Positions 16,778-45,811 of a stretch of DNA of 45,838 bases are shown one piece after another. The notes beneath the pieces were generated by a model that made no database searches, had not been told where the DNA came from, and saw only the letters and a list, made by a program, of their open reading frames with translations. This DNA comes from Clostridia bacterium (GTDB taxonomy: Bacteria > Aerophobota > Aerophobia > Aerophobales > AE-B3A). Location: NCBI GenBank assembly GCA_009618505.1, contig WJOQ01000255.1, positions 1 to 45,838 on the forward strand, in the 5' to 3' direction. A program made the position numbers and the translations under genes. The number at the start of each line of letters is the position of its first letter. The stretch's first letter is position 1.

Positions 16778-17998
16778 ATGATGAATCAGGACAAGTTAGC
16801 TCTTGGCGATCTCGCGAAGCAGTACGCTGAGCTCTGTAACGATCCGGTACAAGATGAGCGCCGGGCTCTCTGGAGGCAACACAACAGCTTGAAGAAGATT
16901 CGGCCTCTGATCTACGTCCGTGCATTTGCGTGGGAGGAAATGTCCCAGTCAAAATGCACGTGCGCGGACCCGTTCCTCCGACAGTTCGAGGATTTTTTCC
17001 GTAACCACCTGTTCTGGAGTACCTTTAACGACGATTCAATTTTCGAACCGTGGGTCACTGTCCAGGCGACCCAAAAATGCGTCGGTTGGGGTTTGTCCGG
17101 TGAACGCAACTTCAGCGAGGAGCCCGCAGGTTCATGGAAAACCGACTATCCCATCAGGAAGCTTGACGATATTGAACAACTGTGCATCCCATGGCATGAA
17201 ATCGACGAAGAGAGGACAGCAAGGGATGTCCAGGGACTGCAAGATGCTGTTGGAGACGTCATCACAATCAACGTCGATCGTGGGCCGGCTTACAGGATGT
17301 GGACAGGCGACATCTCTACGGATCTCGGGTACCTGAGAGGAATCGAACACTTCATGGTGGATATGGTGGACAATCCTGATTGGCTTCATCAGCTTGTTAA
17401 GTTCCTGGCGGACGGAGTGCTGAAGGCCCATGATCAGGCGGAAGCGGCCGGAGATTGGGGACTGTGTGCTCACCAGAATCAGAGCATGGCGTATGCAGAG
17501 GAGCTACAAGACCCGGCACCCAATGTCAATGGCGTCAAACGCACCCAGTTATGGGGCTACATGGCAGCCCAGGAGTTCACTGGCGTATCGCCGGCAATGC
17601 ATGAGGAGTTCCTGCTACGATATCAGTTGCCGATACTCGACAAGTTCGGTCTGGTTGCTTACGGCTGTTGTGAGGATCTTACCTACAAAATTGACATGTT
17701 GCGGCAAATCCCGAACTTGCGGCGGATTGCAGTCTCGCCCTTTGCTGATGCCGCGAAGTGCGCTGAGCAGATAGGACGCGACTATGTCTTCAGCTATCGG
17801 CCGAGTCCAGCTGATATGGTGAGCTACGATTTCGATCCTGACCGTGTTAGATCCATTTTAAGACGTGATCTGCAGGCCTGTAAGAACTGCCTTGTGGACA
17901 TCACATTGAAGGATGTAGAGACGGTACAAAGAGACCCCAATCGTGTTCGCCAGTGGGTGATCATTACGCGGGAAGTGATTGACGAGATTTTTGGATGA
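16778..17998 (+). CDS. UroD-like protein (MtaA/CmuA superfamily), GC-rich, subtype with YGCCE motif
   Basis: This 406-residue protein has the uroporphyrinogen-decarboxylase-like TIM barrel. Relatives in the MtaA/CmuA branch are zinc-dependent methyltransferases that move methyl groups between a corrinoid protein and a thiol or substrate. In place of the usual H-x-C-G it has Tyr295-Gly-Cys297-Cys298-Glu, and a distal cysteine (Cys371, KNCLVDITLKD) is kept, so a metal site is plausible. Sampled sequence is about 58% GC, clearly above its neighbours, which suggests separate acquisition. It is bounded by a palindrome (16691-16710) and a hairpin (18013-18045). Function cannot be set beyond the superfamily. 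Confidence 0.82.
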   Translation: MMNQDKLALGDLAKQYAELCNDPVQDERRALWRQHNSLKKIRPLIYVRAFAWEEMSQSKCTCADPFLRQFEDFFRNHLFWSTFNDDSIFEPWVTVQATQKCVGWGLSGERNFSEEPAGSWKTDYPIRKLDDIEQLCIPWHEIDEERTARDVQGLQDAVGDVITINVDRGPAYRMWTGDISTDLGYLRGIEHFMVDMVDNPDWLHQLVKFLADGVLKAHDQAEAAGDWGLCAHQNQSMAYAEELQDPAPNVNGVKRTQLWGYMAAQEFTGVSPAMHEEFLLRYQLPILDKFGLVAYGCCEDLTYKIDMLRQIPNLRRIAVSPFADAAKCAEQIGRDYVFSYRPSPADMVSYDFDPDRVRSILRRDLQACKNCLVDITLKDVETVQRDPNRVRQWVIITREVIDEIFG

Positions 17999-18012
17999 TG
18001 CAAGCCGAACAA

Positions 18013-18045
18013 GGCGCTGGAGCAGTATAAAATTGAACCAGCGCC
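18013..18045 (+). repeat. Stem-loop after the GC-rich UroD-like gene
   Basis: GGCGCTGG (18013-18020) pairs with CCAGCGCC (18038-18045) around a 17-base loop. There is no strong T-run. It may end or protect the transcript and marks the right edge of the GC-rich segment. Confidence 0.55.
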
Positions 18046-18088
18046 TGCAAATTTAAGGCAAGTTTCGCACAAATGTGGAAATACAGTT

Positions 18089-19174
18089 ATGGATTTGAAA
18101 GAATATTTGCAAATTAATGATAAGCAGCTTGAAAGATTCAAGGATATATATAGACGGTACAGGATGATGTATGAAGATCCTGATAATTGTTTCCCTATGT
18201 TTATGATAATGGTTCCTGTAGAAAATTTGCCAACATGGGAAGAACGTCTTGCAGACCCTATTGTGATGCTGAAAGCGGAGATGGATATACTCAGGCCACA
18301 CCTTGAGTTTGAGGATGACCGTGTTCCTACAGTTCGTGTTGAGTTTGGAACAGCTCAGGTAGCAGCCGCTTTTGGCTGCGAGATGTTTGTGCCACCTAAT
18401 AGCCTCCCTGCTGCAAAGACACATATTCTGAAAAAGGCGAAGGATGTATACAAAATGGAAAAACCATCCCTTGATGCAGGTTGGTATGAAAAACTGAAGG
18501 AATATACCAGGGTTTTTCTTGAGAACCTTCCGGAGGGAATTCATATTCAACACCCGGATATTCAGAGTTCCTTTAATTCAGCACACCTCATTCGAGGAAA
18601 TGATATATTTATTGATTTCTATGATGAACCCCAAGCCCTGGATGCGCTTCTTGACCTTATAACTGACTACATGATTGACTTGGTTCCTCACCTTAAAAGC
18701 ATGATCAGTACCGACAGGGAATGGTTTTTTGATTGGGGAGCAATGTGGAAAGGTACGGCCAGGATATCTAATTGTTCCACACATATGATAAGTCCAGACC
18801 AATACAAAAACCATATCATGCCCAGAGATATGCATCTGCTGAAAACAATTGGTGGAGGCAGAATGCACTACTGCGGCACTTCGGACAAGGTAATTAATGA
18901 GTTCTTCAAGGTGCCTTATATTACAGGACTTGATTACGATGCAGACCATCATGAGCTCTTTTCTTTATCTGAGCGTGTCCCAAAGCATGTAACCCTGCTT
19001 CACTCTTACTGGGGTACGGGCTCCGATGAAACGATTCAGCGTCTTCTGAAAGGAGACTGGCCCAAAAAGCGGAATATCATAGTGCAAGTGCATGTCTCTT
19101 CTCTCGAAGAGGGAAATCAGGTCCTCAAAAACCTACGCAAATCAGTTCCTTATGCCTATCAGGGCGACCTGTAA
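18089..19174 (+). CDS. UroD-like protein (MtaA/CmuA superfamily) with HYCG motif
   Basis: This 361-residue UroD-fold protein has the zinc-type motif His260-Tyr-Cys262-Gly in GRMHYCGTSDK, the arrangement used by MtaA-type methyltransferases. The C-terminal region has VQVHVSS where MtaA has its second zinc cysteine, so the classical third ligand is absent. The segment FDWGAMWKGTARISNCSTHMISPDQY corresponds to the conserved mid-barrel region of the family. It follows the GC-rich UroD-like gene by 90 bases with only a weak ribosome-binding site and has intermediate GC content. It could act on a methylated sugar or amine, but this is inference only. Confidence 0.85.
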   Translation: MDLKEYLQINDKQLERFKDIYRRYRMMYEDPDNCFPMFMIMVPVENLPTWEERLADPIVMLKAEMDILRPHLEFEDDRVPTVRVEFGTAQVAAAFGCEMFVPPNSLPAAKTHILKKAKDVYKMEKPSLDAGWYEKLKEYTRVFLENLPEGIHIQHPDIQSSFNSAHLIRGNDIFIDFYDEPQALDALLDLITDYMIDLVPHLKSMISTDREWFFDWGAMWKGTARISNCSTHMISPDQYKNHIMPRDMHLLKTIGGGRMHYCGTSDKVINEFFKVPYITGLDYDADHHELFSLSERVPKHVTLLHSYWGTGSDETIQRLLKGDWPKKRNIIVQVHVSSLEEGNQVLKNLRKSVPYAYQGDL

Positions 19175-19259
19175 GTAGATTTGTATGTCTCCTCTGGGGC
19201 TAAAATAATAAGAAGGAGTAATTTGTGAAGATGAGCGATATGACTTACAACATCAGCAA

Positions 19260-19576: not shown

Positions 19577-20441
19577 TTGAGAATCAATTCAAAAGATAGG
19601 ATGGTTAAGACCTTAAACGGGGAGAAGCCAGGTAGAGTAGCTGTTGCTCCTCACTGGTGGGGTCATTATAAATTTGAGATAGCAGGCAAAGATTATATAA
19701 CAGACTGGTACAGAGATGGGTCTTCTATGATTGAAATATAGGCCAAATTTTATGAAACTTTTAAGCCTGATTGGTTTCACCTTCATAGTGGTACCCCTGG
19801 CCACTATAAGTATCTCAGAGTGAAAAAGGAAGATGATAGATTTTTTTTAATAAATCCTCTTGGCTGGGAGCCGCCAATTGGAGGTTGGTATGATGAAGTA
19901 CTTAATAGAAAAAGTTTCCCAGATAAGTCTTGAGTGGGCTAAAGCTTATGCTGAGGCTGGCTGTGATGCCTTTATTATTTCTGAGGCAGAGTTCTCCTCG
20001 GATTTAATATCACCCAAGATGTACCAGAGGGTACTTTTTGATATTCATCAAAGATATTTTAAAGAAATTTCTGAAATGGGGATATTCCCAATGCTCTGTT
20101 TTTCTGGCAACATAAATCCTCTTATAAAATATATCAACAAAATCGGAATAAAGGCTTTAATGGTTGAAGAAAACAGAAAGGGATTTAGCATGGATACTTT
20201 GAAAATTAGGGAAATATTAAATGAAGAAATTACCCTTTTTGGAAATATTGACCCCTATGAGGCATTAGTTAAAGGGAGGCCGGAGGATGTGGAAAAGGCG
20301 GTCAAAAAACAACTTTTAGCTGCTCGAAGGGGAAGATTTATCGTTTGCAATGGAAGTCCTTTGATAGAGGGAACTCCTCCTGAAAACGTCAAGACAATGA
20401 TAGGGGTGGCTCGTCGATATGGAAAAAATCCACAGTACTAA
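19577..20441 (+). pseudogene. UroD-like gene broken by a TAG stop, a frameshift and an internal deletion
   Basis: A TTG at 19577 behind AAGGAGG opens a UroD-like N-terminus (RINSKDRMVKTLNGEKPGRV). It meets TAG at 19739-19741, then continues as AKFYETFKPDWFHLHSG to TGA at 19931. The second half continues in another frame (19860-20441) with LEWAKAYAEAGCDAFIISEAEF, MLCFSGNINPLI and a normal C-terminus. Roughly 100 middle residues expected between the halves are absent. The C-terminal part (193 residues from ATG 19860) could be translated but lacks the N-terminal barrel. The TAG probably replaced a Gln codon. It is the most eroded member of the local UroD-like set. Confidence 0.8.
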
Positions 20442-20465
20442 ATTTTTTGATAGGGGAGATATAAA

Positions 20466-23430: not shown

Positions 23431-24558
23431 ATGACAGGGAAGGAGCGCATCAAGAAAGCCTTTGCCAACAACGGGGAGCCGGATCGGGTCCCCATCGAGC
23501 CGGGCCTTGATTTTGATACTCTGACTGACCTATCCGGCCTCGATTACTGGAAATACCAGGAGCAAGGGCATACCGAATTGAGCAGCCTGATTACCTGGTG
23601 CAATCGGCTGGGATTTGATCTGTACTATTTTGCCGCCGGGATTCCCGAACCCAACCCACCTGAGAGTATCCAGATTAGCACAAGAAAGTGGAAGGAAGGA
23701 GAAGTTCGTATCGTCGAGACAAACGCAAGGACACCCTCAGGACATATCCAGCAGCGCCGCCGCTATCCCAGGCACAACCCCGAGTATTCTCATGAAAAAT
23801 TTATCAAAGACCTTCATGCTGATTGGCCGGTGTTCAAGGAATATTTCGGAGAAGAGTGGCCAGTTCACCGGCGGTACTTTGAAGAATACGCACGCGCTGG
23901 GGACCGTGGGGTGGTCGGCGTTGTTGTCCACAGCCCAATTGACTGGTGGCAGGAATATCGCCATGGCGGTATCGAACAGGTGATTTTTGACCTCTATGAC
24001 GAAAAATCACTGATGGAGGAGGTTTTCGAATACTACCAGATTCACAGCTTTGCCTACCTTGAGACAGCCGTTAAATTAGATCCTAAGCCCGATTTCGTGA
24101 TGATTCACGGATCAACTTGTTCGGCGAGTGTGATTTCGCCGAATCTCTTTAAAACCTATGCCCTTTCTTATATTCAACAAGCCACTGCTTTACTGAAGAA
24201 CGCGGGAATTCTGAGTCTATTCCATGTCTGCGGTAGGAGCAACGAGTGGCTCCCTATGCTTGCCGAGACAGACTTAAATGTAATAGACGCCCTGGAACAT
24301 CCCCCTGCTGGTAATGTTGATTTGGGCAAAGCGAAGAAGCTCTACGGGAATCGGCTCTGTCTAAAGGGGAATGTTTCGGCAATTACCATGACTTATGGCA
24401 GGCGGCAGGAGGTTCGCCAGGGGGTCATACGCTGTCTTGACGCCGCGGCTGCAGGTGGCGGATATGTGCTCGCTGTCGGAGATAGTATCGGGCCAAAAGC
24501 GAATCTTAAAAATATTGAAGAGATGGTCAACACCGCTCTCAAGTACGGACACTACTGA
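23431..24558 (+). CDS. UroD-like protein (MtaA/CmuA superfamily) with HVCG motif, GC-rich
   Basis: This protein of about 375 residues starts in the usual family way (MTGKERIKKAFANNGEPDRVPIEPG). The zinc-type motif is His265-Val-Cys267-Gly in SLFHVCGRSNEW, followed by the conserved NVIDALEHPPAGN. The C-terminus YVLAVGDSIGP lacks the distal cysteine of MtaA. ATG 23431 is preferred, with GGAGGG about 10 bases upstream. A TTG at 23413 would add six residues. Sampled sequence is about 58% GC against the AT-rich flanks, as in the gene at 16778. Its TGA touches the ATG of the next gene, implying coupling to the isomerase-like protein. Confidence 0.87.
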   Translation: MTGKERIKKAFANNGEPDRVPIEPGLDFDTLTDLSGLDYWKYQEQGHTELSSLITWCNRLGFDLYYFAAGIPEPNPPESIQISTRKWKEGEVRIVETNARTPSGHIQQRRRYPRHNPEYSHEKFIKDLHADWPVFKEYFGEEWPVHRRYFEEYARAGDRGVVGVVVHSPIDWWQEYRHGGIEQVIFDLYDEKSLMEEVFEYYQIHSFAYLETAVKLDPKPDFVMIHGSTCSASVISPNLFKTYALSYIQQATALLKNAGILSLFHVCGRSNEWLPMLAETDLNVIDALEHPPAGNVDLGKAKKLYGNRLCLKGNVSAITMTYGRRQEVRQGVIRCLDAAAAGGGYVLAVGDSIGPKANLKNIEEMVNTALKYGHY

Positions 24559-26028: not shown

Positions 26029-27336
26029 ATGAGTGAAAAATTAAGAAGGGAAAAACTTGCCATTGAAGGAGGAAAACCGGTAAAGACCACACCTAACCTA
26101 CCTATGTTCCCCGGTGGGCTGGAAATAGGCCAGGAAGAAAAGAAGGCTGTGCTTGAAGTTCTAGACCACAAGTATCTTTTTCGCTATTACGGCCCAGAGG
26201 AATTTTCCTCCAGAGTAAAATTACTTGAGGAAGAGTTTGCCAAAAAGATGGGAGTAAAATATGCACTGGCAGTGAATTCCTGCACCTCGGCTTTAATTAC
26301 CTCTCTTATAGCAGTGGGAGTTGGTCCAGGAGATGAGGTAATCATTCCTGGATATACATTTTTTGCTAGCTGTGCTGCGGTAATTGCAGCTAGGGCTATT
26401 CCTGTAATTGCCGAGGTTGATGATTCTCTTACTCTGGACCCCGAGGACCTTGAGCGTAAAATAACTCCCCGCACTAAAGCAGTAATGCCGGTTCATATGC
26501 GGGGGGCTCCCTGCAATATGGATGAGATTATGGAAATAGCCAAAAACCATAATTTAAAGGTGGTGGAAGATGCTGCTCAGGCCTGTGGAGGAAGCTATAA
26601 GGGAAGATATTTAGGAACCTTTGGGGATTGCAATACCTTCAGCTTTCAGTATCACAAAATAATTACTGCCGGTGAGGGTGGAATGGTCACCACCGATGAT
26701 GAACTCCTCTATGATAGAGCTCAGGGATATCACGATGTAGCAGCCTGCTGGCGTCCCGGAGGCCCGGGGAAGCGTTTTGGCTCGGCCCGATATAAGGGAG
26801 AGCTTTTTCCAGGAGTTAACTTCCGCATGTCAGAGTTAATAGGGGCAGTAACCAGGGTTCAATTAAGACGCCTTGATGGTCTAATTGAGAGAATGAGAAA
26901 AAATAAGAAAAGAATAAAAGATGCCATTTCCCATATTAAGGGAATACAGTTTCGAAGACTAAATGACCCAGAAGGAGATACGGCTATCGCTTTGTTCTTC
27001 TCACTTCCAACGGCAGAGCTTACAAAGAAATTTGCCAAAGATTTAAGAGCAGAGGGAGTTGAGGCAAATTCCATATATAATAAGGGAGTGCCTGACTGGC
27101 ATATTTATTCCCACTGGGAGATGATTATTAACAAATGGACAGTTACTGCTGAGGGCTGTCCTTACACCTGCCCTCACTATAAAGGTCCAGAGATTAAGTA
27201 TTCAGCTGATATGTTGCCTAAGACCCTGGATTTATTAAGTAAATCCATCCAAATTGACATTCCTCCTCAGTTGACAAAGGAAGATTGCCATATGATTGCC
27301 CGGGGCGTCCACAAAGTAGCAGATGCATATTTATAA
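26029..27336 (+). CDS. DegT/DnrJ/EryC1-family PLP-dependent aminotransferase
   Basis: This 435-residue fold-type I PLP enzyme carries the DegT sugar aminotransferase signatures: YALAVNSCTSALITSL near residue 80, VVEDAAQACGG, and the Schiff-base lysine Lys210 in FQYHKIITAGEGG. The C-terminus matches the family (MLPKTLDLLSKSIQIDIPP). Members aminate keto sugars, and some homologues in catabolic islands act on amino-inositol or unknown substrates. The start is backed by AAGGAGG about 8 bases upstream. It is followed by a broken hydroxypyruvate-isomerase-like gene. A fragment of a second DegT gene lies at 19260. Confidence 0.93.
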   Translation: MSEKLRREKLAIEGGKPVKTTPNLPMFPGGLEIGQEEKKAVLEVLDHKYLFRYYGPEEFSSRVKLLEEEFAKKMGVKYALAVNSCTSALITSLIAVGVGPGDEVIIPGYTFFASCAAVIAARAIPVIAEVDDSLTLDPEDLERKITPRTKAVMPVHMRGAPCNMDEIMEIAKNHNLKVVEDAAQACGGSYKGRYLGTFGDCNTFSFQYHKIITAGEGGMVTTDDELLYDRAQGYHDVAACWRPGGPGKRFGSARYKGELFPGVNFRMSELIGAVTRVQLRRLDGLIERMRKNKKRIKDAISHIKGIQFRRLNDPEGDTAIALFFSLPTAELTKKFAKDLRAEGVEANSIYNKGVPDWHIYSHWEMIINKWTVTAEGCPYTCPHYKGPEIKYSADMLPKTLDLLSKSIQIDIPPQLTKEDCHMIARGVHKVADAYL

Positions 27337-27350: not shown

Positions 27351-27805
27351 ATGGTTAAACTTGATGTCTGTTTGGAAACAGTATCATATCTACCTTAAGT
27401 GAGGCGGCTAAAGTAGTGGAAAAAGAGGGCTTCACTCTCTTACTTGAGCCACTTAACACCTACGTGGACCACCCGGGATATTTCCTTAACTCTGCCAAGG
27501 AGGGAGCCAGGATAATAAGGGATATTAACCATCCCCATATTCACCTGCTTTACGATGTTTATCATATGCAGATAATGGAAGGAAATGTTATATCCACTAT
27601 TGAGCAAAATATTGACATTATAGGCCATTTCCATGCTGCTGGTGTTCCAGGAAGAGGCGAGCTTTACATTGGTGAGCTAAACTATCCCAATATTATCAAG
27701 CGTATTGAAGGATTAGGATACGAGGGATGTTTCGGGCTGGAATATTTTCCCAGCATGGACTCTGAAGAATCACTAAAAAGCATAAAAGAGCTATTAGAAG
27801 ATTAA
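27351..27805 (+). pseudogene. Hydroxypyruvate isomerase-like gene with internal deletion
   Basis: ATG 27351 behind AGGAGGG begins MVKLDVCLETV, the typical start of hydroxypyruvate-isomerase-like TIM barrels, but runs into TAA at 27396-27398. From about 27393 another frame gives the family's C-terminal half: EKEGFTLLLEPLNTYVDHPGYF with a metal Glu, LLYDVYHMQIMEGN, GHFHAAGVPGRGELYIGELNY and GLEYFP. More than 100 residues between the two parts are gone, with a frame change at the junction. A product of 130 residues from GTG 27416 is possible but would lack half the barrel. It is a pseudogene in an otherwise intact operon. Confidence 0.8.
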
Positions 27806-33918: not shown

Positions 33919-33933
33919 AAGGTAGTGAATGAT

Positions 33934-34935: not shown

Positions 34936-35023
34936 TACATACCCAGAGATCTCATTCAAATATCTTAACATTACTACATATTATCCTGTTCTACTATAAA
35001 AGACCGCTGCCGGCTAATTAATT

Positions 35024-36160: not shown

Positions 36161-36219
36161 ATCCTTGCCTCTCTCCCATGTTGGGCTCTCCTTAAAAGAG
36201 TAAATACTTAAATCAGCTC

Positions 36220-36239
36220 TTTCTTTATAGCACCTTAAG
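36220..36239. repeat. 20-bp exact direct repeat, copy 1 (second copy at 43245-43264)
   Basis: TTTCTTTATAGCACCTTAAG occurs here across the stop of the UroD-like gene at 36235. It recurs at 43245-43264 across the stop of the ceramidase-like gene, in the same orientation relative to the genes. On the minus strand one reading frame gives LRCYKE at both places, hinting at a shared lost coding sequence. Confidence 0.65.
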
Positions 36240-37359
36240 GCCATCCTGTATGTGAAAGTAGCTCCTTAGCCTCTTTTTCTGAGGAACAGCTAGTAAAAAT
36301 CAACAACCCTTCTGGCTTAAGACTCTCCAGAACAAAATCAACTTCTGCAGACTGGCAGAAAACCTGAATGGCTTTTTTCTTAGCCTGAATTTTTCGATAT
36401 ATGGGTATCCACCTAGCTACGCCTTCTTTCACCATACCTGCACCGGGAACCCACTGAACAGCGTTAAGGCGAGGAATTTCCAAGATCATGTCCAAATGTT
36501 TCAAAGCATCCGGGCCATCTAAGTGATAGATAGAGTAATCTAAATAATTAATTTCATTCATCAGTTCCTCCAGGAAAAACTCCCCGTACATTGAGGTGGA
36601 AATAAGGCAAGTAAAGTCATTTTGGACGGGGTACCCCTTTCCTGGAGACCAGAGATTTGTCCAACTAGAACTGCCTTCCTGTTTGTCTGCCGTAATCTGG
36701 TAACTTTCCTCATAAATCTTACGCCATACTTTCCAAAGGGGTTTCATTGCCTTCTTAACCCCCTTCGGGTTATCAATTAAGTCCAGACACAGCTGCTGAG
36801 GACCTCCCCTTAGAACTGCTAATGAATCCATGCCCTCGTGAATATCAGTTGGACTGATAAAATACCTTCCTTGTGATTTTTCTAAGGCGTAGCGCATAAA
36901 CTCTTTAGTTTTTTGCCAATAGAAGTTTTTATCTTTGACTTGAATCACGGATAAATCGGAATAATCTGTAAGGATTGGATCATTCCATTTTGCCCAGGAG
37001 ACAGGGGGCGGCTCTTCCTCATTTGCTCCCCAGGTAAAAGTGGGCAAGAAAACAGGGGAAAATTCTATATCTGCACCCATATAAGCAGAGAGGATATCGG
37101 TACCAAAGTTTGGCCAGTAACAGGGAAAGGCTACACCACCAAAAAAAGTGGCCTGGAAAATTTTTTCAGCACATTCAATAACTTTTTCTTTGTCAAATCT
37201 CTCCTCTCTTCTTATCTTTATTGTATTTCCGGATAGTATTTCTCTGGATTGGGAATCATCCCGTGGAGCAACTACCCAAATAGGAACCCTATCCAAAACC
37301 TGGCAATTCCACCAGGTTTCATAATATTTTTTTATTTTCCCCCAATTTTCAAGCAGCAT
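36235..37359 (-). CDS. UroD-like protein with HLDG motif and distal cysteine
   Basis: This 374-residue member of a divergent UroD-like subgroup starts MLLENWGKIKKYYETWWNCQVLDRVPIWV. The metal site is altered to His279-Leu-Asp281-Gly (IYHLDGPDALKHL), while a cysteine in the C-terminal IFTSCSSEKEAKEL is kept. The set therefore becomes His/Asp/Cys. Mid-protein features include ISPTDIHEGMDSLAVLRG and GYPVQNDFTCLISTSMYGEFF. It lies between two other UroD-like genes in the minus-strand operon, with GAGGAG five bases before the ATG. The stop overlaps the 20-bp repeat at 36220. The role may differ from the H-x-C-G paralogues. Confidence 0.84.
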   Translation of the reverse strand: MLLENWGKIKKYYETWWNCQVLDRVPIWVVAPRDDSQSREILSGNTIKIRREERFDKEKVIECAEKIFQATFFGGVAFPCYWPNFGTDILSAYMGADIEFSPVFLPTFTWGANEEEPPPVSWAKWNDPILTDYSDLSVIQVKDKNFYWQKTKEFMRYALEKSQGRYFISPTDIHEGMDSLAVLRGGPQQLCLDLIDNPKGVKKAMKPLWKVWRKIYEESYQITADKQEGSSSWTNLWSPGKGYPVQNDFTCLISTSMYGEFFLEELMNEINYLDYSIYHLDGPDALKHLDMILEIPRLNAVQWVPGAGMVKEGVARWIPIYRKIQAKKKAIQVFCQSAEVDFVLESLKPEGLLIFTSCSSEKEAKELLSHTGWP

Positions 37360-37394: not shown

Positions 37395-38414
37395 TTATTT
37401 ATATTGGCCATACTTGAGGATTGCTTCCATCATACGCTTTACATTTTCCACTTTTGCATAACCAGGGATAGAATTACCACTGGAGATGATATAGCCTCCT
37501 CCCGGGGCAAGAGCTTCTATTTTTCTTCTCACTTCTTCTTCAACTTCATCTGGCTCAGCATTACTCAACAAGTTAAGATCAATATTACCCACAACACATA
37601 CTCTTTTTCCATAATCTCTCTTTACCTGGATAATATCCATGCAATTTGGATCAATCGGATGTAGACCATTCATTCCCAAAGTTAATAAATCATCTATTAT
37701 AGGGATTAAATTGCCATCGCTGTGAAATACCCAGGGAATCGTTATTTTCTCGGCTACCTGTTTTACCCGAGGCAAGATAAGGTCTCTGAAGGTCTGAGGA
37801 GAAAAGAAAGGTCCCGTATCAAAAGCAAGGTCATCAGCTGCGCAGAAAAAATCAAAACCAATATTTATAAGTTTCTCTATAATTACACAATTCCACTCAA
37901 CATATTTGTCCAACACTCTTTTTATAAGGTCGGGATTATCATACAGGGCATAGGAAAACCCCTTCACTCCCATACTGCGCATGGTACAATCTATGCCCAA
38001 ATTTACTATAGCACTGGCTGCAAATTCCTCTTTCTCCTTGATAAACTTCTCTGCCGAGTTATATATTTGCTTATCTTCCGGACCGGAACACTTAACAAGT
38101 TCTCTTCGGCCGTCACTCAAAGTAAGAACACATGGCATGTGGTCTATAATTCTTAAATCATCCTCATTTTTAATTACCCCTTCTGTTTGATATTGAATTC
38201 CGTTCTTCCCTTCTTTCCGCTGGACAAAGGGGTCAGGATAACCCCACCATACAATGTGGTCTCGATGCATGCAGCGAGAAATTTCCTTCTCTGTAAAAGT
38301 CTCTTTGCCTGAGATTTCCTTTACCACTTGAGGGGAAATATCAATTTCAAAGTATGGAACTCGGTCTGGAATTTCTCCTTTTAAAACCTTTATTATTCTA
38401 GTTTGAGCACTCAT
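37395..38414 (-). CDS. UroD-like protein with HSDG motif
   Basis: This protein of about 339 residues starts at the ATG at 38414 (MSAQTRIIKVLKGEIPDRVPYFEIDIS). The motif is His231-Ser-Asp233-Gly in WVFHSDGNLIPIIDDL, then NGLHPIDPNCMDIIQVKRDYG and the C-terminus GGGYIISSGNSIPGYAKVENV. Asp replaces the zinc cysteine. The frame extends to a TTG at 38468 inside the end of the GH3 gene. The ATG has no ribosome-binding site but sits just after a hairpin at the GH3 stop (38418-38443), so re-initiation after GH3 translation is likely. This suggests GH3 and this protein are made together. Confidence 0.82.
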   Translation of the reverse strand: MSAQTRIIKVLKGEIPDRVPYFEIDISPQVVKEISGKETFTEKEISRCMHRDHIVWWGYPDPFVQRKEGKNGIQYQTEGVIKNEDDLRIIDHMPCVLTLSDGRRELVKCSGPEDKQIYNSAEKFIKEKEEFAASAIVNLGIDCTMRSMGVKGFSYALYDNPDLIKRVLDKYVEWNCVIIEKLINIGFDFFCAADDLAFDTGPFFSPQTFRDLILPRVKQVAEKITIPWVFHSDGNLIPIIDDLLTLGMNGLHPIDPNCMDIIQVKRDYGKRVCVVGNIDLNLLSNAEPDEVEEEVRRKIEALAPGGGYIISSGNSIPGYAKVENVKRMMEAILKYGQYK

Positions 38415-38417
38415 GTG

Positions 38418-38443
38418 TTTATTAAAGGGTCTAAAAACAAAGA
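38418..38443 (-). promoter_or_regulatory. Hairpin spanning the GH3 stop codon before the UroD-like start
   Basis: On the minus strand AAAGGGTCT, loop TTGTTTTT, AGACCCTTT forms a 9-bp stem that includes the TAG of the GH3 gene. The UroD-like ATG follows about 9 bases later. No classical ribosome-binding site is present, so the hairpin may place terminating ribosomes near the new start. Confidence 0.5.
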
Positions 38444-40782
38444 CCCTTTTTATCTCCTTTAACTTCAAAACTTCCTTTCAAATGTATATCTTCTGAGGAA
38501 CTTCCTATCATTACCTCAAAAATACCCCTCTCCACAACCAAATCCATATTGATGTCATAAAAAGCCAAATCTCCCGAGGTGATAGTGAAGTTCACTGTCT
38601 TTTTCTCCTCTGGCTCAAGGGTTATTCTTTCAAACCCTTTGAGTTCCTTTATGGGTCTGGCTACGGTAGCTACTTTATCATTAATGTATAATTGAACTAC
38701 TTCATCTCCTTTATATTTACCAATATTCTGGACATCTACACCAATATTCATCTTTTCCTTAGAACTTATTTTTTCAGGATTTATTTTGAGATTACTATAC
38801 TCAAATTCTGTATAACTTAGTCCATAACCAAAGGGAAATAGCGGTTGCTTTCCTCTTAAGTCAACATAATCATATCCTCTGCCTGTGGGTTTGGGATTGT
38901 AATAGAGTGGAAGTTGTCCTGTAGTTTTGGGGAACGTTATAGGTAAGCGACCGGCTGGATTATAATCACCAAATAAAACATCGCCAATGGCATTCCCTCC
39001 TTCCTCTCCTGGATACCAGGCTTCAACTACAGCTTCTACGGTATTTATCCATTTACTCATAGTGACAGCGCTTCCATTGATAAGCACTACCACTACAGGT
39101 GTTCCTGTGTTACATATCTCTTTAATTAATTCTTCCTGCACCCCGGGTAGGTCTAAGTTGCATCGATCTTTACTCTCGCCCTCTGTTTCTTCAGAATTTC
39201 CCACAAACAAAATAGCTATATTAGATTTTTCGGCTATTTTTATGGCTTCCTCAAAACCTTTCCTAGAACTTCCGGTTAACCTGCAGCCCTGGGCAAAATA
39301 AACCTTTGTATTTTTGGAAACCTTATTCTTAATTCCTTCTAAGGGTGTAACTACCCCTACCCCATAGCCACTATATCCTCCAACTCTTATCTCATTTGCA
39401 TTAGGGCCTATAAGGGCAATAGATTTTAAATCTTTAGATAAAGGCAAGATGCCATCATTTTTTAATAAGACTATGGCCTGGCTGGCTACTTCTAAAGCTA
39501 ATTTTCTGTGCTCTTCACAGCCGCAAATCTTTTCAGCATATTCAGGATCAACATAAGGGTCATCGAACAAGCCCAACCAGAATTTAACTCTTAAAATTCT
39601 GCGAGTTGCCTCGTTAATTACCTGCTCGGATAGTTTTCCTTCCTTAACTAACTCTGGAAGTTCCTCGAAACAATCGCTTTCAGGCAGCTCCATATCTAAT
39701 CCTGCCTCTATAGCTTTTTTAGCGGCTTCGGCCTTTGTCCTGGCCACTTTATGCGATGTTGTTGTGACGCCACGCTCAGATGTGGGCCAATTTAGAGCGT
39801 ATAGACCTAAAACAGCATCATAATCTGAGACTACAAACCCTTTAAATCCCCATTCTTTTCTGAGAATATCTGTAAGAAGCCATCTATTACAAGAGCAAGG
39901 TACACCATCAAGAGAATTATATGCTGCCATAACAGATAAAGCATTCGTTTTTTGAATACAGGCTTTAAAAGCAGGAAAATAAATTTCTCTTAGGATTCGC
40001 TCCGAGAGGTGAATGGCGTTACTATCCCGCCCTCCATCGCCGACGAAGTTGGCGGCAAAATGTTTAGGAGTAGCTGCCACCTTTTGACTTTGAACGCCCT
40101 TGACAAAAGAGATAGCCATAAGCGAAGCCAGGTAAGGATCCTCGCCATAAGTTTCCTCAGTTCTGCCACATCTTGGATCCCTGGCAATATTGATGGTTGG
40201 TGAAAGACATTGATGAATACCACGTGCTCTCGTTTCTTTTCCGATGGCTGTGGCTACCTCTTTCATTAAATCTGGATCCCAGCTACTGGCCAGAGCTATT
40301 GACTGAGGAAAAATTGAAGAGCCTTTAGCCATGCAGCCATGTAAGCATTCATCGTGGATTATTACCGGTATTCCCAGACGAGTTTCTTCAAGAGCAAATT
40401 TCTGAATTTTATTAGCAAGTTCTGCACTTTCTTTGTGGGAAAATGTTCTCAGGACACAACTTAACTCGCCTAGGCCATATTTTCCCTTTTCTACAACTAG
40501 TTCTTTCCAGTGTTTTCTCCAGAAATGAGTTGATATAGCTTCTGAAATATCTCTTTCCTCAGAAATTATTTTATAAAACAAACTCTCAAGCTTTTTCCCT
40601 TTGTCTGACAAGCTCCCAAAAAGCTCGGAGAATGTTTTCCGTAAATGCCATTTTGCTTTTAATTGGCTAATTTTCTCCTCCAGGGTCATTCTTCCAAGTA
40701 AATCTTCAACTCTTCTCTCTTCAGATTGAGTAGAATCTAGATAAACCAACTTTTCTGCGCTAGACCGCTTGTTCAAGCTCAT
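38431..40782 (-). CDS. Glycoside hydrolase family 3, beta-glucosidase-like
   Basis: This 783-residue enzyme has the GH3 three-part layout. The (beta/alpha)8 domain includes PRCGRTEETYGEDPYLAS, TPKHFAAN and the candidate nucleophile Asp320 in VVSDYDAVLGL. The alpha/beta sandwich holds SIALIGPNANEIRVGGYSGYG and GNSEETEGESKDR, and the fibronectin-type III C-terminal domain includes KPTGRGYDY and DEVVQLYIND. GH3 enzymes release terminal beta-linked sugars with retention. There is an extra 100-residue helical N-terminus before the first conserved strand, possibly a lineage feature. No signal peptide is present, so action is cytoplasmic. AAGGAGG lies about 5 bases before ATG 40782. It follows the dehydrogenase gene by 33 bases. 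Confidence 0.93.
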   Translation of the reverse strand: MSLNKRSSAEKLVYLDSTQSEERRVEDLLGRMTLEEKISQLKAKWHLRKTFSELFGSLSDKGKKLESLFYKIISEERDISEAISTHFWRKHWKELVVEKGKYGLGELSCVLRTFSHKESAELANKIQKFALEETRLGIPVIIHDECLHGCMAKGSSIFPQSIALASSWDPDLMKEVATAIGKETRARGIHQCLSPTINIARDPRCGRTEETYGEDPYLASLMAISFVKGVQSQKVAATPKHFAANFVGDGGRDSNAIHLSERILREIYFPAFKACIQKTNALSVMAAYNSLDGVPCSCNRWLLTDILRKEWGFKGFVVSDYDAVLGLYALNWPTSERGVTTTSHKVARTKAEAAKKAIEAGLDMELPESDCFEELPELVKEGKLSEQVINEATRRILRVKFWLGLFDDPYVDPEYAEKICGCEEHRKLALEVASQAIVLLKNDGILPLSKDLKSIALIGPNANEIRVGGYSGYGVGVVTPLEGIKNKVSKNTKVYFAQGCRLTGSSRKGFEEAIKIAEKSNIAILFVGNSEETEGESKDRCNLDLPGVQEELIKEICNTGTPVVVVLINGSAVTMSKWINTVEAVVEAWYPGEEGGNAIGDVLFGDYNPAGRLPITFPKTTGQLPLYYNPKPTGRGYDYVDLRGKQPLFPFGYGLSYTEFEYSNLKINPEKISSKEKMNIGVDVQNIGKYKGDEVVQLYINDKVATVARPIKELKGFERITLEPEEKKTVNFTITSGDLAFYDINMDLVVERGIFEVMIGSSSEDIHLKGSFEVKGDKKGLCF

Positions 40783-40815: not shown

Positions 40816-41829
40816 TTATTCATTAACCATAACACTTTTTACGGTAGTCTCTCTGTCATCTCTTAATATCTTCATAGCCTCCTCAATTTCATCTAGTTTG
40901 AATGTATGACTAATGAGTGCCTTTGCCTCTATTACACCGGACTGAATTAATTCAATACAGGTTGGAAAATAGAGGGAAGGAGAAGCAAATGAGGCTCGGA
41001 GCTCGAGTTTCTTAAAGTGAAAATCATTAGCATTGAAAGAAATTTCTGCGTTAGGGCCATATTCAATCCCTATAAATGCAACAATACCTCCTACATTTGT
41101 AATTTCAAAGGCAGGAGGAATAAGCCTGGGTGGTGCTGTTATAAGTACTCTATCTAAACCTTTCCCTGCATAGGTATGGTCTCGAATATCCATTTTGTCT
41201 GTCAAGATTATTTCATCAGCACCAAATTTTCTGGAAAGTGTGATCCTTCTTCTTGCCACTGAAAGCTCGGCAGCATATATCTTTCTTGCTCCCACCGCTC
41301 GGGCAAGTTTTAAAGCCATAAGTCCAATAGGGCCAAGGCCTATTACCAATACATCATTATTTAGCTTTATATCAGCAGTATACACTAGATCTAAGGCAAC
41401 GCCAAGAGGCTCAACCAATGAGGCTTCTTTAAAAGAAATGCCTTCAAAAGGAACTAAAGTTTCTTTTGGCACAATAATGTAATCAGCAAAACCCATAGGA
41501 CCGGTAAGCCAGTAATTCGGCCCCTTATTACAGAGGTCAACTCTTCCATTACGGCAGTTAGAGCAGGTTCTGCAGAACGTACCGCTCTCCAATACAACCT
41601 TTTTACCTATTGTAACATTATTAACATGCTTGCCTTTCTTTTCTACTAAGCCGGCAATTTCGTGCCCAAAGGGCTGCCAGTCCGCTGCTTCGGTAGCTGC
41701 AGTAGAGAGGTCAGTTCCACATATGCCACATGCTTTAACCTTGACCAAGACTTCATCTTCGGTAATCTCTCTCATATCGAATTCACGAATTTCAAACTGG
41801 TAAGGTGCTTTTACATAAGCTGCTCTCAT
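40816..41829 (-). CDS. Zinc-dependent alcohol/polyol dehydrogenase (MDR superfamily)
   Basis: This 337-residue medium-chain dehydrogenase binds catalytic zinc through Cys37 (CGICGTDL) and His56-Glu57 (GHEIAG). Structural zinc is bound by Cys86, 89, 92 and 100 (CRTCSNCRNGRVDLC). The NAD-binding loop VIGLGPIGLMALKLA follows. The family oxidises sorbitol, threonine, galactitol and similar secondary alcohols, and the exact polyol is unknown. The start is supported by AAGGAG. It probably handles a sugar alcohol or keto sugar from the glycosidase reactions, being followed by the GH3 gene in the same minus-strand unit. Upstream is a sulfatase fragment. Confidence 0.92.
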   Translation of the reverse strand: MRAAYVKAPYQFEIREFDMREITEDEVLVKVKACGICGTDLSTAATEAADWQPFGHEIAGLVEKKGKHVNNVTIGKKVVLESGTFCRTCSNCRNGRVDLCNKGPNYWLTGPMGFADYIIVPKETLVPFEGISFKEASLVEPLGVALDLVYTADIKLNNDVLVIGLGPIGLMALKLARAVGARKIYAAELSVARRRITLSRKFGADEIILTDKMDIRDHTYAGKGLDRVLITAPPRLIPPAFEITNVGGIVAFIGIEYGPNAEISFNANDFHFKKLELRASFASPSLYFPTCIELIQSGVIEAKALISHTFKLDEIEEAMKILRDDRETTVKSVMVNE

Positions 41830-42028: not shown

Positions 42029-43141
42029 TTATTTATCGTATTGCTTTAAGTATTTAAAATAATATTGGAAGTTTTTAAGGGGTACATCAGGTGGAACTGT
42101 ATGGTCAAGAGTAGGTATATAACCTCTCCTCTCTTTAAAATACTCCATTACTCGATCCACTTCTTGCTCAATAGCTCCATAATCTTTGCTTAATGCCCGT
42201 TTATCAATCCCCCCTACAATCATAAATTTATCTGGAAAATCTGAGTGAATTTTTCTCACATCATTTCCAGCCTGAACTTCAAAAGGGAATATTCCTGTAA
42301 CGCCACCTTCTAAGAAAAGCGGGATTAACTCCTGCAAATTTCCATCACTGTCAACCCAAATATTTTTAATTCCTATATTTTTGAGGTAACTTATCAGTTT
42401 TTTGTAATAAGGAAGAATGAATTGTCTAAAGAGTTTAGGAGAAATAAGGGGACCGCTTTTGTAAGCCATATCTTCATCTATTACAATAAGGTCAAGATCC
42501 ATCCCCCTAGCTATCCTGGTAAATATTGCTTTATTCAAATTTACCCATCGGTGTTCTATATCATGAATAAGCTCTGGATCATCGAAAAACGTGTAGAAGA
42601 GTTTTTGATCGCCCAATAAGTTTCTTGCCAGCATAAAGGTACCGCATAAGGTAGTTGCGAGGGGCCATTTTCGACCTTCTTCTCCATATTCTCTCTTTAA
42701 TTGACCCCAATTTCTGAATCGTAATTCTTCATTTAACTCTAATCGAGGTTTTATCTTTTCCCAGGTGGCACGATCCTTAACCGGAAATTGAAGAAATTGA
42801 GGCATTGAGGCATCTTCATTATTTTTAAAAACTTTTTTTATAATACCATCGCCGTCCTGAATAATTCGACAATTTTGATCTTCTTCTATTATCTCTTCAT
42901 CAAATCTAGGAGCAAATGGAGAGATGCAAGCCCCAGCAATTTCCTGAGGCATCCAAACCATTTTATCAAAGCCAAAATATTCATCCAGGTCCCGGCCGTA
43001 TTTCTCTGGATCAAAATCAATATTTAAACCCTCTTTTCTCCATCCCTTTAGAGTAGTAGGCCAAAAACCCGGATTCCAACGAAAATAACGATCTACTTCT
43101 TCTCTTTCACAGTAAGCTGAGAATCTTTCTCTTGAGTTCAT
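42029..43141 (-). CDS. UroD-like protein with DSDG motif
   Basis: This 370-residue member starts MNSRERFSAYCEREEVDRYFRW. The metal motif has become Asp264-Ser-Asp266-Gly (IWVDSDGNLQELIP), without the His and Cys of MtaA-type enzymes. Family landmarks remain: DEDMAYKSGPLISPKLFRQFI, then FMIVGGIDKRALSKDYGAIEQE and IPTLDHTVPPDVPLKNF near the end. A zinc-thiol chemistry is therefore unlikely. Another metal or a purely binding role is possible. The start is supported by GGGAG five bases upstream. It precedes the sulfatase remnant in the minus direction. Confidence 0.85.
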   Translation of the reverse strand: MNSRERFSAYCEREEVDRYFRWNPGFWPTTLKGWRKEGLNIDFDPEKYGRDLDEYFGFDKMVWMPQEIAGACISPFAPRFDEEIIEEDQNCRIIQDGDGIIKKVFKNNEDASMPQFLQFPVKDRATWEKIKPRLELNEELRFRNWGQLKREYGEEGRKWPLATTLCGTFMLARNLLGDQKLFYTFFDDPELIHDIEHRWVNLNKAIFTRIARGMDLDLIVIDEDMAYKSGPLISPKLFRQFILPYYKKLISYLKNIGIKNIWVDSDGNLQELIPLFLEGGVTGIFPFEVQAGNDVRKIHSDFPDKFMIVGGIDKRALSKDYGAIEQEVDRVMEYFKERRGYIPTLDHTVPPDVPLKNFQYYFKYLKQYDK

Positions 43142-43244
43142 AGTACTCCCTTTTCATGTAAGTTCGTACCAGGTAAGTCTTTCTAAGAAACCCAATTGTA
43201 ATTTACCAGGATTCAAAAACCTCTTCTCACGTACAACTTCTGAT

Positions 43245-43264
43245 TTTCTTTATAGCACCTTAAG
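43245..43264. repeat. 20-bp exact direct repeat, copy 2 (first copy at 36220-36239)
   Basis: Same 20 bases as at 36220-36239, again across a stop codon. The remaining gap 43142-43244 reads on the minus strand as a short frame RFLNPGKLQLGFLERLTWYE ending at TGA. This may be a further gene fossil, but I cannot name it. Confidence 0.6.
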
Positions 43265-44536: not shown

Positions 44537-44537
44537 A

Positions 44538-44557
44538 ATATTCACTATAGTGAATAT
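44538..44557. promoter_or_regulatory. Perfect 20-bp palindrome at the start of the ceramidase-like gene
   Basis: ATATTCACTATAGTGAATAT is fully self-complementary and lies in the 30-40 base gap between the UroD-like gene at 44576 and the ceramidase-like start. It could be a repressor site (different from the LacI palindrome) or an RNA hairpin controlling translation. Confidence 0.55.
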
Positions 44558-44575
44558 GTATTTGATTTTACCATC

Positions 44576-45811
44576 TCACCTACATACCTTCTTCCAACTT
44601 TCAATCATAATCTCTACACTCTCCCATGGTGTATCAGGGAAAAGAGAATCTACTGGCGAGAGTATAAAACCATGCGGTCCCAGAATTTCCACTGCAGTGT
44701 AAACCGCCTCATAAATTTCTTCAGGCAAGCCTTTTTTCAGGGTAAGAGCACTATTTACTCCCCCCGCAAGAGCGAATTGTCCACCAAGTTGTTGTTTCAG
44801 CAGTTTTAAATCTACTTTATCCTGTACTGGATCGACAAAGTATAGTAGATCAATATCAGCCTCTTTAAGTAGCTCAAGCATTGGCATAAGCCCTGTTGTC
44901 ATAACATAGGCAAAGAGCAAACCTGCTTGATGTACCATACTGACAAGGTTTTTCAGATGAGGTAATACAAAACGGCAAAATAATGCTGGTGACCAAAAAT
45001 CTGTAGAGCTATACCAGCCTCGCTGCACTATCATATCTATGCTACCGATATCCAGCATAATTTCAGTTCGGCGCTTATCAAACTCGAACATCACCTCCAC
45101 AAACTCCTGGAAAAAGGCGGGGTTCTGTGAAGCTGCGATGAGTGCTCCTTCTACACCGCTCAGCCATACAATGCCGTCCATACCAAAGGCGCTCCATCCC
45201 TGAACGAGAACCCCTTGCTCAGTAGCAAACCTTTTCACCTGATCCATTCTCTCTTTATACTTTGCCAACCGTTCTGATGTTGGATTTTGAAGAAGATAAC
45301 GAAGTTTAGGAAGGTCTTCAGGGCCACTAACAGGATGTTTCACAGCCCGGGGTATATTAAAGTCCTCAAAGAGAGACACTTTCTCAGGCTGAATTACCCA
45401 CCCTGCTCCCTGGTTTTCTCTTGTTTGCCGAACTGTGTGTCTCAGTAGGCCAGCCGGTGTATTATATTCCCGATGTAAGAGAGTGTAAGTTTCCTTGTCT
45501 GATGGAGGCTCACGCCAATCTCTTATCTGAACACCGGGATGCATACTCCAGGGAACTGAAACATCAAGCACATCATCAACTCCTAAAGAAAACCAACGGC
45601 TAACCCGTTTAAAATCCTGTTTTATACCCCAGGGTTCTGGCAGTGTATGAATATGCTCTAGCCTCATTGTATACCAGTGAGCAACCTCACGATTATTCTC
45701 ACTCCAGCGCAGGTGTTTGGGAGCAGTAAAGCCAAAGACTGGGCAATAAAGTGGTACATGATCTGGTTTCTCACCTTTAATAGTAGCCAACAAACGTTCA
45801 CGTGATCTCAT
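44576..45811 (-). CDS. UroD-like protein lacking the metal motif
   Basis: This 411-residue member starts MRSRERLLATIKGEKPDHVPLYCPVFGF. Where relatives have H-x-C-G it reads FAYVMTTGLMPML, so neither His nor Cys ligand is present. The remaining landmarks are intact: RGWYSSTDFWSPALFCRFVLP, the segment IDLLYFVDPVQDKVDLKLL, and FILSPVDSLFPDTPW at the end. It is the largest of the minus-strand set and lies at the right edge of the window. AAGG lies about 9 bases upstream of ATG 45811. Loss of the ligands suggests a changed chemistry or a regulatory/partner role next to the ceramidase-like protein. Confidence 0.84.
   Translation of the reverse strand: MRSRERLLATIKGEKPDHVPLYCPVFGFTAPKHLRWSENNREVAHWYTMRLEHIHTLPEPWGIKQDFKRVSRWFSLGVDDVLDVSVPWSMHPGVQIRDWREPPSDKETYTLLHREYNTPAGLLRHTVRQTRENQGAGWVIQPEKVSLFEDFNIPRAVKHPVSGPEDLPKLRYLLQNPTSERLAKYKERMDQVKRFATEQGVLVQGWSAFGMDGIVWLSGVEGALIAASQNPAFFQEFVEVMFEFDKRRTEIMLDIGSIDMIVQRGWYSSTDFWSPALFCRFVLPHLKNLVSMVHQAGLLFAYVMTTGLMPMLELLKEADIDLLYFVDPVQDKVDLKLLKQQLGGQFALAGGVNSALTLKKGLPEEIYEAVYTAVEILGPHGFILSPVDSLFPDTPWESVEIMIESWKKVCR

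Follow-up and report, generated by a model that had tools for sequence, protein, structure and literature searches.

A divergent array of uroporphyrinogen decarboxylase-like proteins in a bacterial sugar-use locus: candidates for corrinoid-dependent O-demethylation

Several described systems contain methyltransferases with the uroporphyrinogen decarboxylase (UroD) fold. Among them, MtaA and MtbA (PDB 4ay7 and 4ay8) are methylcobamide:CoM methyltransferases with a His-Cys-Cys site, while CdmB is a zinc-free UroD-fold methyltransferase that plays the MT1 role together with a corrinoid protein, an MTII and an activator. MtvB, OdmB, VdmB and MtoB are, like CdmB, MT1s of the UroD superfamily; the substrates of CdmB are haloalkanes, and those of its named O-demethylase kin are aromatics. 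The type 1 mlp gene clusters encode several UroD-superfamily paralogues per cluster as well as a corrinoid protein and Ram/RACE, and the Mlps, which are tied to sulfur and selenium, carry His-Cys-Cys save for several Mlp1s (PMC10418091). In O-methyltransferases of the superfamily the Cys ligands are replaced, and the rule that sites other than His-Cys-Cys suit oxygen substrates, which corresponds to a distinction between zinc-thiol and carboxylate sites, has already been published (PMC10418091). Then, how does an array of UroD-like genes in a glycan locus compare with these systems?

Here, the window is the whole 45,838-nt stretch of DNA that was analysed, in which open reading frames and profile searches identify ten intact UroD-superfamily ORFs and one broken copy (Table 1; genes are named below by their first coordinate). 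These ORFs sit within and next to two convergent operon-like runs, which also encode GH38 and GH3 proteins, a methyltransferase of the MTTB superfamily and sugar enzymes, and the profile matches of the neighbouring genes bear out the placement among glycosidases proposed by an earlier, sequence-only reading. The ten long intact ORFs that it counted are all present, while the broken eleventh had been overlooked; note that the ORFs listed from 23413 and 33925 contain 23431 and 33934, respectively, as internal starts. Since any PF01208 match at all is found in 8 of 14 control genomes, ten such genes within 29 kb are not a matter of chance. A promoter and terminator scan of positions 33800-36400 gave results at chance level.

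Table 1. Genes of the window and the evidence for their assignment.
Feature	Coordinates	Strand	Evidence
Sugar ABC importer (binding protein + two permeases)	575..3817	+	profile match
GH4 glycosidase	3954..5303	+	profile match
LacI regulator + second sugar ABC importer	7056..11812	+	profile match
GH2 glycosidase, 1009 aa	13564..16593	+	profile match
UroD-like A, 406 aa, YGCCE	16778..17998	+	no Pfam match
UroD-like B, 361 aa, HYCG	18089..19174	+	PF01208, 23.0 bits vs cut-off 23.9
Broken eleventh UroD-like gene (approximate start)	19600..20441	+	in-frame TAG + frame change
GH38 alpha-mannosidase-like, 979 aa	20466..23405	+	profile match
UroD-like C, HVCG + distal D	23431..24558	+	PF01208; phmmer; alignment
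Fucose/arabinose-isomerase-like, 471 aa	24559..25974	+	profile match
DegT-family sugar aminotransferase	26029..27336	+	profile match
MTTB-superfamily methyltransferase, 487 aa, no in-frame stop	27819..29282	+	PF06253, 377.4 bits
1145-aa protein	29292..32729	+	no Pfam/NCBIfam match
UroD-like D, 388 aa, HNCG, variable distal position	32752..33918	+	PF01208; alignment
UroD-like E, HICG	33934..34935	+	PF01208; phmmer
UroD-like F, HFHGNC + distal D	35024..36244	-	PF01208; phmmer; alignment
UroD-like G, HLDG + C358, predicted UroD/MtaA fold	36235..37359	-	structure model; alignment; no Pfam match
UroD-like H, HSDG + distal N	37395..38468	-	PF01208; alignment
GH3 glycosidase, 783 aa	38431..40782	-	profile match
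Zinc alcohol/threonine dehydrogenase-like	40816..41829	-	profile match
UroD-like I, DSDG + distal H	42029..43141	-	PF01208; alignment
Ceramidase-N-like protein, 431 aa	43250..44545	-	profile match below cut-off
UroD-like J, V/T at HxC pair, distal D	44576..45811	-	PF01208; alignment

All of the ten belong to the UroD superfamily, either by a PF01208 match above the gathering score, as in seven of them, or by the UroD fold. UroD-family matches occur in 17 of the 21 genomes searched (up to 24 a genome), and the very conserved family of 16778 has 2928 homologues at E<=1e-10, of which the 120 matches listed carry no Pfam domain. The mutual identity of the ten is only 12.5-25.1%, so they do not represent a local radiation, and this divergence, together with the absence of repeats longer than 35 nt in the window from 16 kb onward, rules out recent tandem duplication. 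Pairwise dN/dS is 0.12-0.28 in nine of the ten genes (over just 183 codons in 32752 and 216 in 44576), 18089 being without a pair, which rules out a pile of pseudogenes or decaying duplicates for those nine. That the ten are heme-pathway decarboxylases, or decaying duplicates, is hardly credible. They share superfamily and fold with HemE, many relatives also have its distal His, and one copy is indeed broken. However, beside the dN/dS values, the HemE equivalog TIGR01464 (cut-off 302.95) gives scores of 15.8-31.7 for five intact ORFs and 46.0 for the broken copy, with the remaining five intact ones unmatched at E 0.01, and HxC or HxD stands where UroD has other residues. The heme-pathway identity, by which the sequence-only reading would have fallen, is ruled out by these scores.

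That reading had placed the motifs at one aligned position and had seen in them a natural series from zinc-thiol to carboxylate to none. When 138 UroD-like proteins are aligned with MAFFT (selected from 156 matches by a length of 300 aa or more, one duplicate removed), the ten motifs do occupy the same columns, 753-756, and phmmer independently aligns the HICG of MtaA (4ay7) with the motifs of 37395, 23431, 35024 and 33934, which confirms that the positions are equivalent. In the three of the ten families examined for conservation, query included, YGCCE (16778) occurs in 121/121, HNCG (32752) in 117/117, and the H and D of HLDG (36235) in 112/112. The distal column, where MtaA has Cys and UroD has His, holds H in 56, N in 25, D in 13 and C in 6 of the 138 proteins (H, N or D in 94). 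Within the window, 23413, 35024 and 44576 have D there, 37395 has N and 42029 has H, as read from that single alignment, in which 16778, 18089, 32752, 33934 and 36235 are poorly placed. Judging from these letters, a missing distal Cys need not mean a missing ligand, as H, N or D would fill that column. The distal Cys of MtaA had been reported only for 16778 and 36235. It is found in 36235, where C358 comes after the last strand (352-357; structure model with mean pLDDT 93.9) and is present in 84/112 homologues; 16778 probably lacks it, since C368 and C371 precede the last strand (372-380) in a weaker model (pLDDT 67.5) that is too weak for reading the metal site. Similarly, the absence of ligands described for 44576 applies to the HxC pair, which is V and T, and not to the distal column. 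The complete zinc-ligand set, His-x-Cys with the distal Cys, occurs in none of the ten and in 5 of the 138, hence the proposed series has no demonstrated zinc-thiol end.

Compared with the described systems, the window proteins have the UroD fold in common with all of them and the aligned HxC column in common with MtaA and MtbA, which are the best structural match of the predicted structure of 36235. However, the His-Cys-Cys site is absent, and the scores are far beneath the MtaA, MtbA and MtaA/CmuA cut-offs (for MtaA/CmuA, TIGR01463, 54.6 at best among the intact ORFs, in 23413, and 85.9 for the broken copy, against 235.4). As in the mlp clusters, several UroD-superfamily paralogues lie together, whereas the ligand sets are different and glycosidases accompany them. 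The similarity to CdmB is weak (phmmer against the PDB set, E 9.5e-9 for 37395 and 4.1e-4 for 23431; 42029 finds no PDB chain at E 1), and the setting is a glycan locus; the absence of CdmB from the Foldseek matches listed for 36235 is uninformative either way. The MTTB-superfamily protein 27819 matches the glycine betaine methyltransferase 9yce (E 2.3e-97) and belongs to the MttB proteins without pyrrolysine, having no in-frame TAG and a score of 460.4 with the trimethylamine equivalog TIGR02369 (cut-off 525). The isomerase-like 24559 scores 122.8 with the sulfoquinovose isomerase model, whose cut-off is 700. Profile scans of 30 of the 32 window genes found no B12-binding protein, corrinoid protein or reactivase, and the window contains no cobalamin riboswitch, its two weak matches being sub-threshold. 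In two scans of 22 other loci, 21 lacked such a riboswitch and one had an AdoCbl riboswitch; L155 and L156 have none. None of the titles and abstract openings retrieved, mostly from outside subscription journals, describes UroD arrays at glycosidase loci.

The genome of a sister species (G001) contains three PF02607 matches (corrinoid protein), three MTTB, one RACo and one CdhC (acetyl-CoA synthase), the last of which was found in just 7 of 17 genomes. A single sister contig holds two MTTB genes, a corrinoid protein, RACo and three UroD-like genes. Sister corrinoid proteins are encoded at L031 4061-4717 and L032 9925-10569, and RACo at L032 12162-13973. The sister genome has a single pterin-binding match, whose frame of 406 aa differs from the 266-281-aa type, so no MTII candidate is seen there. 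Nine orthologues of the window UroD-like genes lie on four sister contigs in another arrangement, five of them still together. The orthologue of 16778 (92.9% identity) is two genes away from an MTTB gene, the broken eleventh gene has an intact orthologue of 383 aa, and the order UroD-GH38-UroD-isomerase round 23431 is kept, while 18089 has no orthologue among the sister contigs examined. Consequently, the corrinoid-protein and reactivase genes that the sequence-only reading proposed to search for do exist in a close relative, and its non-heme identity, equivalent motifs and glycosidase setting also stand; the graded local family does not, given this rearrangement and the low mutual identity.

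Do UroD-like genes lie near corrinoid genes in relatives? In 21 genomes, 7 of 35 corrinoid proteins (at most 1.42 expected), 6 of 31 RACo genes (1.42 expected) and 8 of 36 MTTB genes (1.69 expected; 36 used of 37 matches) are near a UroD, where 151 of 177 UroD matches were used, the expectation ignores contig ends and genome kinship is uncorrected. The number of UroDs per genome correlates weakly with those of RACo (0.49, p 0.025) and MTTB (0.45, p 0.038) and not significantly with that of corrinoid proteins (rho 0.36, p 0.11). A corrinoid protein, RACo, MTTB or pterin-binding gene is found within 6 kb of 29 of the 138 proteins, 14 of which are near a corrinoid protein, and the remaining 109 have none. 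The 29 include four window proteins, linked solely through the window's MTTB, and five (L121, and two each of L123 and L124) from loci chosen for known corrinoid or MTTB genes; without those five the count is 24/133, and also without the window's four it is 20/123 by hand. The His-Cys...Cys proteins are linked in 5/5 cases against 24/133 (Fisher p 3e-4), a biased contrast that we do not rely on, as three of the five come from pre-chosen loci.

The linked classes reach beyond the MtaA-like one, to HxD+N (5/16), HxD+H (4/12), HxC+H (4/35) and DxD+H. The nearest relative of 37395 outside the sister genome (L123_3248, 46.2% identity) adjoins corrinoid-protein and RACo reactivase genes; the next (L063_3525, 44.9%) is not beside such genes. 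Two HxDG+N members lie directly next to a pterin-binding methyltransferase, with gaps of 0 and 16 bp. Three relatives have a corrinoid protein beside the genes for 5-formyl-THF cyclo-ligase and FTCD_C, and the stretches examined there contain no UroD. A Subdoligranulum plasmid carries a similar array of nine UroD-like ORFs. GH2, sugar importers and an alpha-L-rhamnosidase accompany them, as do RACo and an AdoCbl riboswitch; the parts of the plasmid examined contain no corrinoid protein.

Two other readings bear on this uneven linkage. It is improbable that the ten are a mixed set, in which a minority, such as the class of 37395, are corrinoid methyltransferases and the rest no longer transfer methyl groups; the class differences agree with it, several classes having no linked member at all, but such zeros are weak evidence given the small classes and the short MAG contigs. 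Rather unlikely, too, is a corrinoid-independent family, in which the UroD barrel with a variable metal site is reused for lyase, decarboxylase, aldol or isomerase sugar chemistry, each subfamily with its own reaction. The 109 unlinked proteins agree with this, as do a genome (G012) with ten UroDs, one pterin-binding match and no PF02607, RACo or MTTB match (MAGs being incomplete), the large HxC/HxD clade that retains a UroD-like distal His, the conserved gene order round 23431, and the metal-dependent HpaI-type aldolases beneath the UroD/MtaA matches in the Foldseek list of 36235. Arguing against it are the excess of UroD-like genes close to corrinoid, reactivase and MTTB genes, the two members abutting the pterin-binding methyltransferase, and the plasmid's reactivase and riboswitch.

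We consider it about an even chance (probability roughly 0.5) that the ten are O-demethylating MT1 enzymes using corrinoid proteins in common. The glycan-use island would then encode a battery of substrate-specific UroD-fold MT1s, each binding another methylated product of the adjacent glycosidases and transporters. First-shell residues (His-x-Cys, His-x-Asp, Asp-x-Asp or other, with a distal His, Asn or Asp) would polarise the methoxyl oxygen, some members perhaps binding no metal, and the Co(I) of a corrinoid protein would then accept the methyl group; MTTB would act in the same way on an N-methyl compound. A small number of corrinoid proteins, between one and three, with genes outside the island, may serve many MT1s, a RACo-type enzyme would reactivate these corrinoid proteins, and a pterin-binding methyltransferase would hand the methyl to tetrahydrofolate and so to the acetyl-CoA pathway. 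Methylated sugars are the presumed substrates, and glycan demethylation fits the gene context. In favour of this reading are the corrinoid, reactivase, MTTB and CdhC genes of the sister genome, the linkage of several motif classes to such genes in relatives, the plasmid array, and the published replacement of Cys ligands and zinc-free CdmB. Against it weigh the 109 unlinked proteins, the weak or non-significant correlations across genomes, G012, the missing MTII candidate in the sister genome, the limited occurrence of CdhC, the lack of a B12-binding protein and a cobalamin riboswitch in the window and of such a riboswitch in 21 of 22 other loci, and the plasmid stretches free of a corrinoid protein. 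A cobalamin-independent or core MetE-like methylation of a thiol, with homocysteine or another acceptor, is very improbable.

It is also possible, if somewhat doubtful, that a modular anaerobic corrinoid-dependent glycan demethylation exists more widely, with many non-cysteine (His/Asp/Asn) UroD-fold MT1s in glycosidase and ABC-importer loci sharing few corrinoid proteins, both in this uncultured lineage and in the plasmid array, with its reactivase and AdoCbl riboswitch, of the gut bacterium Subdoligranulum. Sugar O-demethylation is otherwise known as an oxidative, P450-type reaction. An oxygen-free route, if true, would account for the way anaerobes process methylated polysaccharides and tie glycan degradation to acetogenesis, and would give a function to the 16778 family and to many proteins annotated merely as uroporphyrinogen decarboxylase family. 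With these motif classes, the published ligand rule could also be tested directly within one organism. As for individual members, the G+C content of 16778 is 0.527, compared with 0.41 for the whole window, and one source gives the name 'trimethylamine corrinoid protein 2' to a homologue of 36235 (P0359).

Profile searches of its genes give the window the character of a sugar-utilisation island, with two ABC sugar importers, a LacI regulator, GH4, GH2, GH38, GH3, an isomerase-like protein, a DegT aminotransferase and dehydrogenases. The sequence-only reading had described an array of ten intact UroD-like ORFs with aligned metal motifs; all ten, named here by start coordinate, were recovered where it had placed them, but an eleventh, broken copy had been omitted. 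Since intergenic gaps are short on both strands (0 to 79 bp on the forward, −38 to 199 bp on the reverse), the genes form two convergent operon-like runs, with 16778 and 18089 positioned just ahead of the forward one.

Coordinates of features in the window and in loci of the sister species
Feature	Coordinates	Remark
UroD-like ORFs, + strand	starts 16778, 18089, 23431, 32752, 33934	intact
UroD-like ORFs, − strand	starts 35024, 36235, 37395, 42029, 44576	intact
Eleventh UroD-like copy	ends at 20441	broken
Forward (+) run	~19.9 to 34.9 kb	
Reverse (−) run	45.8 to 35.0 kb	
MTTB methyltransferase	27819-29282	mid-array; profile match; in-frame stop absent
Rfam match, pyrrolysine insertion sequence of mttB	28776-28875	sub-threshold, 27.2 vs 38 bits; within the MTTB gene, which lacks TAG
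Open frame at window edge	3-185 (+)	by eye, resembles the C-terminus of another MTTB
Truncated AP_endonuc_2-like ORF	27416-27805	intact in sister species, L034 6280-7089
Truncated Gfo/Idh-like ORF	6253-6882	intact in sister species, L041 11782-12927
1145-aa protein	29292-32729	between MTTB and 32752; Pfam and NCBIfam scans gave no match
PfkB kinase and D-lyxose-isomerase-family genes	L001 5854-7690 (sister species)	between UroD array and dehydrogenase; GH3 there in window

The Rfam match within the MTTB gene is probably coding sequence in common with mttB.

The motifs do lie at equivalent positions, as had been claimed. When 138 UroD-like proteins from the window and 97 loci, each 300 aa or longer, are aligned, all ten fall in columns 753-756, and phmmer alignments place the motifs of 37395, 23431, 35024 and 33934 on the HICG of MtaA (4ay7). 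YGCCE is kept in 121/121 sequences of the 16778 family, HNCG in 117/117 of the 32752 family, and H and D of HLDG both in 112/112 of the 36235 family, where the counts comprise the query and the long-enough members of 120 listed matches, out of 2928, 172 and 252, respectively. Judged from these sequences, the motif is characteristic of its family in the three families tested. The single departure, YGCCG in the sister-species orthologue of 16778, may be a sequencing error.

Pairwise identity among the ten proteins is 12.5-25.1% (mean 17.1), which rules out a local radiation as the origin of the array. The genome scan yielded one relative, the MAG CSMAG_2518 ‘Clostridia bacterium’. In this sister genome nine of the intact members, as well as the broken copy, have orthologues (87-94% amino acid identity), spread over four contigs: five together on L001, two on L035 with an intact partner of the broken copy, and one each on L033 and L037. 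No orthologue of 18089 turned up on the contigs retrieved. The arrangement of the genes has changed, the 44576 orthologue lying near that of 23431; the order UroD-GH38-UroD-isomerase is conserved on L035, and the 16778 orthologue (L034) adjoins a glucosamine-isomerase-family gene and the MTTB. The dN/dS ratio is 0.12-0.28 for the nine UroD pairs and 0.14-0.26 for the MTTB, GH38, isomerase and dehydrogenase pairs.

A comparable array occurs on OY725838.1, a 109.8-kb plasmid of gut Subdoligranulum variabile whose record has no annotation. The stretches read (L154/L156) hold nine UroD-like ORFs, two of them cut by stretch or record end, among them YGCCE (33% identity to 16778), DSDG + H (31% to 42029), two HxCG + H and one HxC + C types; they also encode GH2, an alpha-L-rhamnosidase, a RACo reactivase, a DUF2284 protein and two ABC importers for sugars. 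Between the reactivase and a 167-aa ORF that matches no Pfam family sits an AdoCbl riboswitch, scoring 55.3 bits against a cut-off of 50; no corrinoid protein was seen in these stretches. As the same mix of deep subfamilies accompanies glycosidases in a distant host, an accidental association is unlikely. Overall, the observation of the sequence-only reading is partly confirmed and its interpretation partly supported: the equivalence of the motifs and their place among glycosidases hold up, a graded local series does not.

Are these enzymes then part of a corrinoid system? The sister genome does contain both corrinoid-protein and reactivase genes, with matches to three B12-binding_2, three MTTB, one RACo and one CdhC; on one contig, three UroDs accompany two MTTBs, a corrinoid protein and a RACo of 603 aa that carries a Fer2 domain, and another contig has a corrinoid protein amid four UroDs. 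Across 21 genomes, a UroD is found within 6 kb of 7/35 corrinoid proteins, 6/31 RACo and 8/36 MTTB matches, which is four to five times what a uniform distribution would give. Of the 138 UroD-like proteins, 29 have at least one of these three genes or a pterin-binding methyltransferase gene within 6 kb, including four window members linked solely via the window's MTTB and five from loci picked knowing such genes lay there; HxD+N, HxD+H, HxC+H and DxD+H are all represented. Two HxD+N members abut a pterin-binding methyltransferase (L103_9421 at 16 bp, L064_7361 at 0 bp). Elsewhere, in three related genomes (L140, L141, L143), a corrinoid-protein gene adjoins 5-formyl-THF cyclo-ligase and cyclodeaminase (FTCD_C) genes, an arrangement that would fit a shared carrier.

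However, the other 109 proteins have no such neighbour, and the number of UroDs in a genome is not significantly correlated with that of corrinoid proteins (rho 0.36, p 0.11), the values being rho 0.49, p 0.025 for RACo and rho 0.45, p 0.038 for MTTB. One genome with 10 UroDs (G012) gave no match in PF02607, RACo and MTTB profile searches; its B12-domain proteins are longer (452-495 aa), and it has one pterin-binding match. Another (G003), with 17 UroDs and no PF02607, has, where a contig ends, a B12-binding fragment and after it a pterin-binding gene, so MAG breaks can hide corrinoid genes. The one pterin-binding match in the sister genome measures 406 aa and does not belong to the 266-281-aa type, CdhC is matched in 7/17 genomes, and a cobalamin riboswitch is absent from the window scan and from 21 of 22 other loci scanned. 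Some other sugar chemistry by the UroD-like enzymes is a rival of fairly low probability. The favoured reading is corrinoid-type O-demethylation via shared carriers, at a probability of 0.5; for methylated sugars as the substrates the probability is likewise fairly low.

According to Kountz and Balskus (PMC10418091), S-methyltransferases of the superfamily carry His-Cys-Cys zinc sites, and O-methyltransferases have carboxylates or non-ligands in place of one or both Cys. Applied to the window, this rule would make none of the ten an S-methyltransferase and would assign most of them to oxygen substrates. CdmB is a UroD-fold MT1 without zinc (PMC13222342). Arrays, an MT1 role and the exchange of ligands are thus all known singly; the novelty seems to lie in their joining with glycan loci, in the scale, and in the HxD/DxD + His/Asn sets, and the literature listings searched yielded no description of it.

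The 16778 family numbers 2928 homologues (E<=1e-10), of which the 120 listed share 70-94% identity, bear names from several phyla and have no Pfam domain. On sequence grounds, it is an unusually conserved, unnamed UroD-like family. The gene itself was probably gained by transfer, because its G+C content is 0.527 (0.41 for the window), its relatives of 70-77% identity bear names from other phyla, and among the other 16 group genomes six have a relative of 32-35% identity and ten have none at E<=1e-30. YGCCE is kept in five of these six distant relatives, those read full-length, as well as in the plasmid relative.
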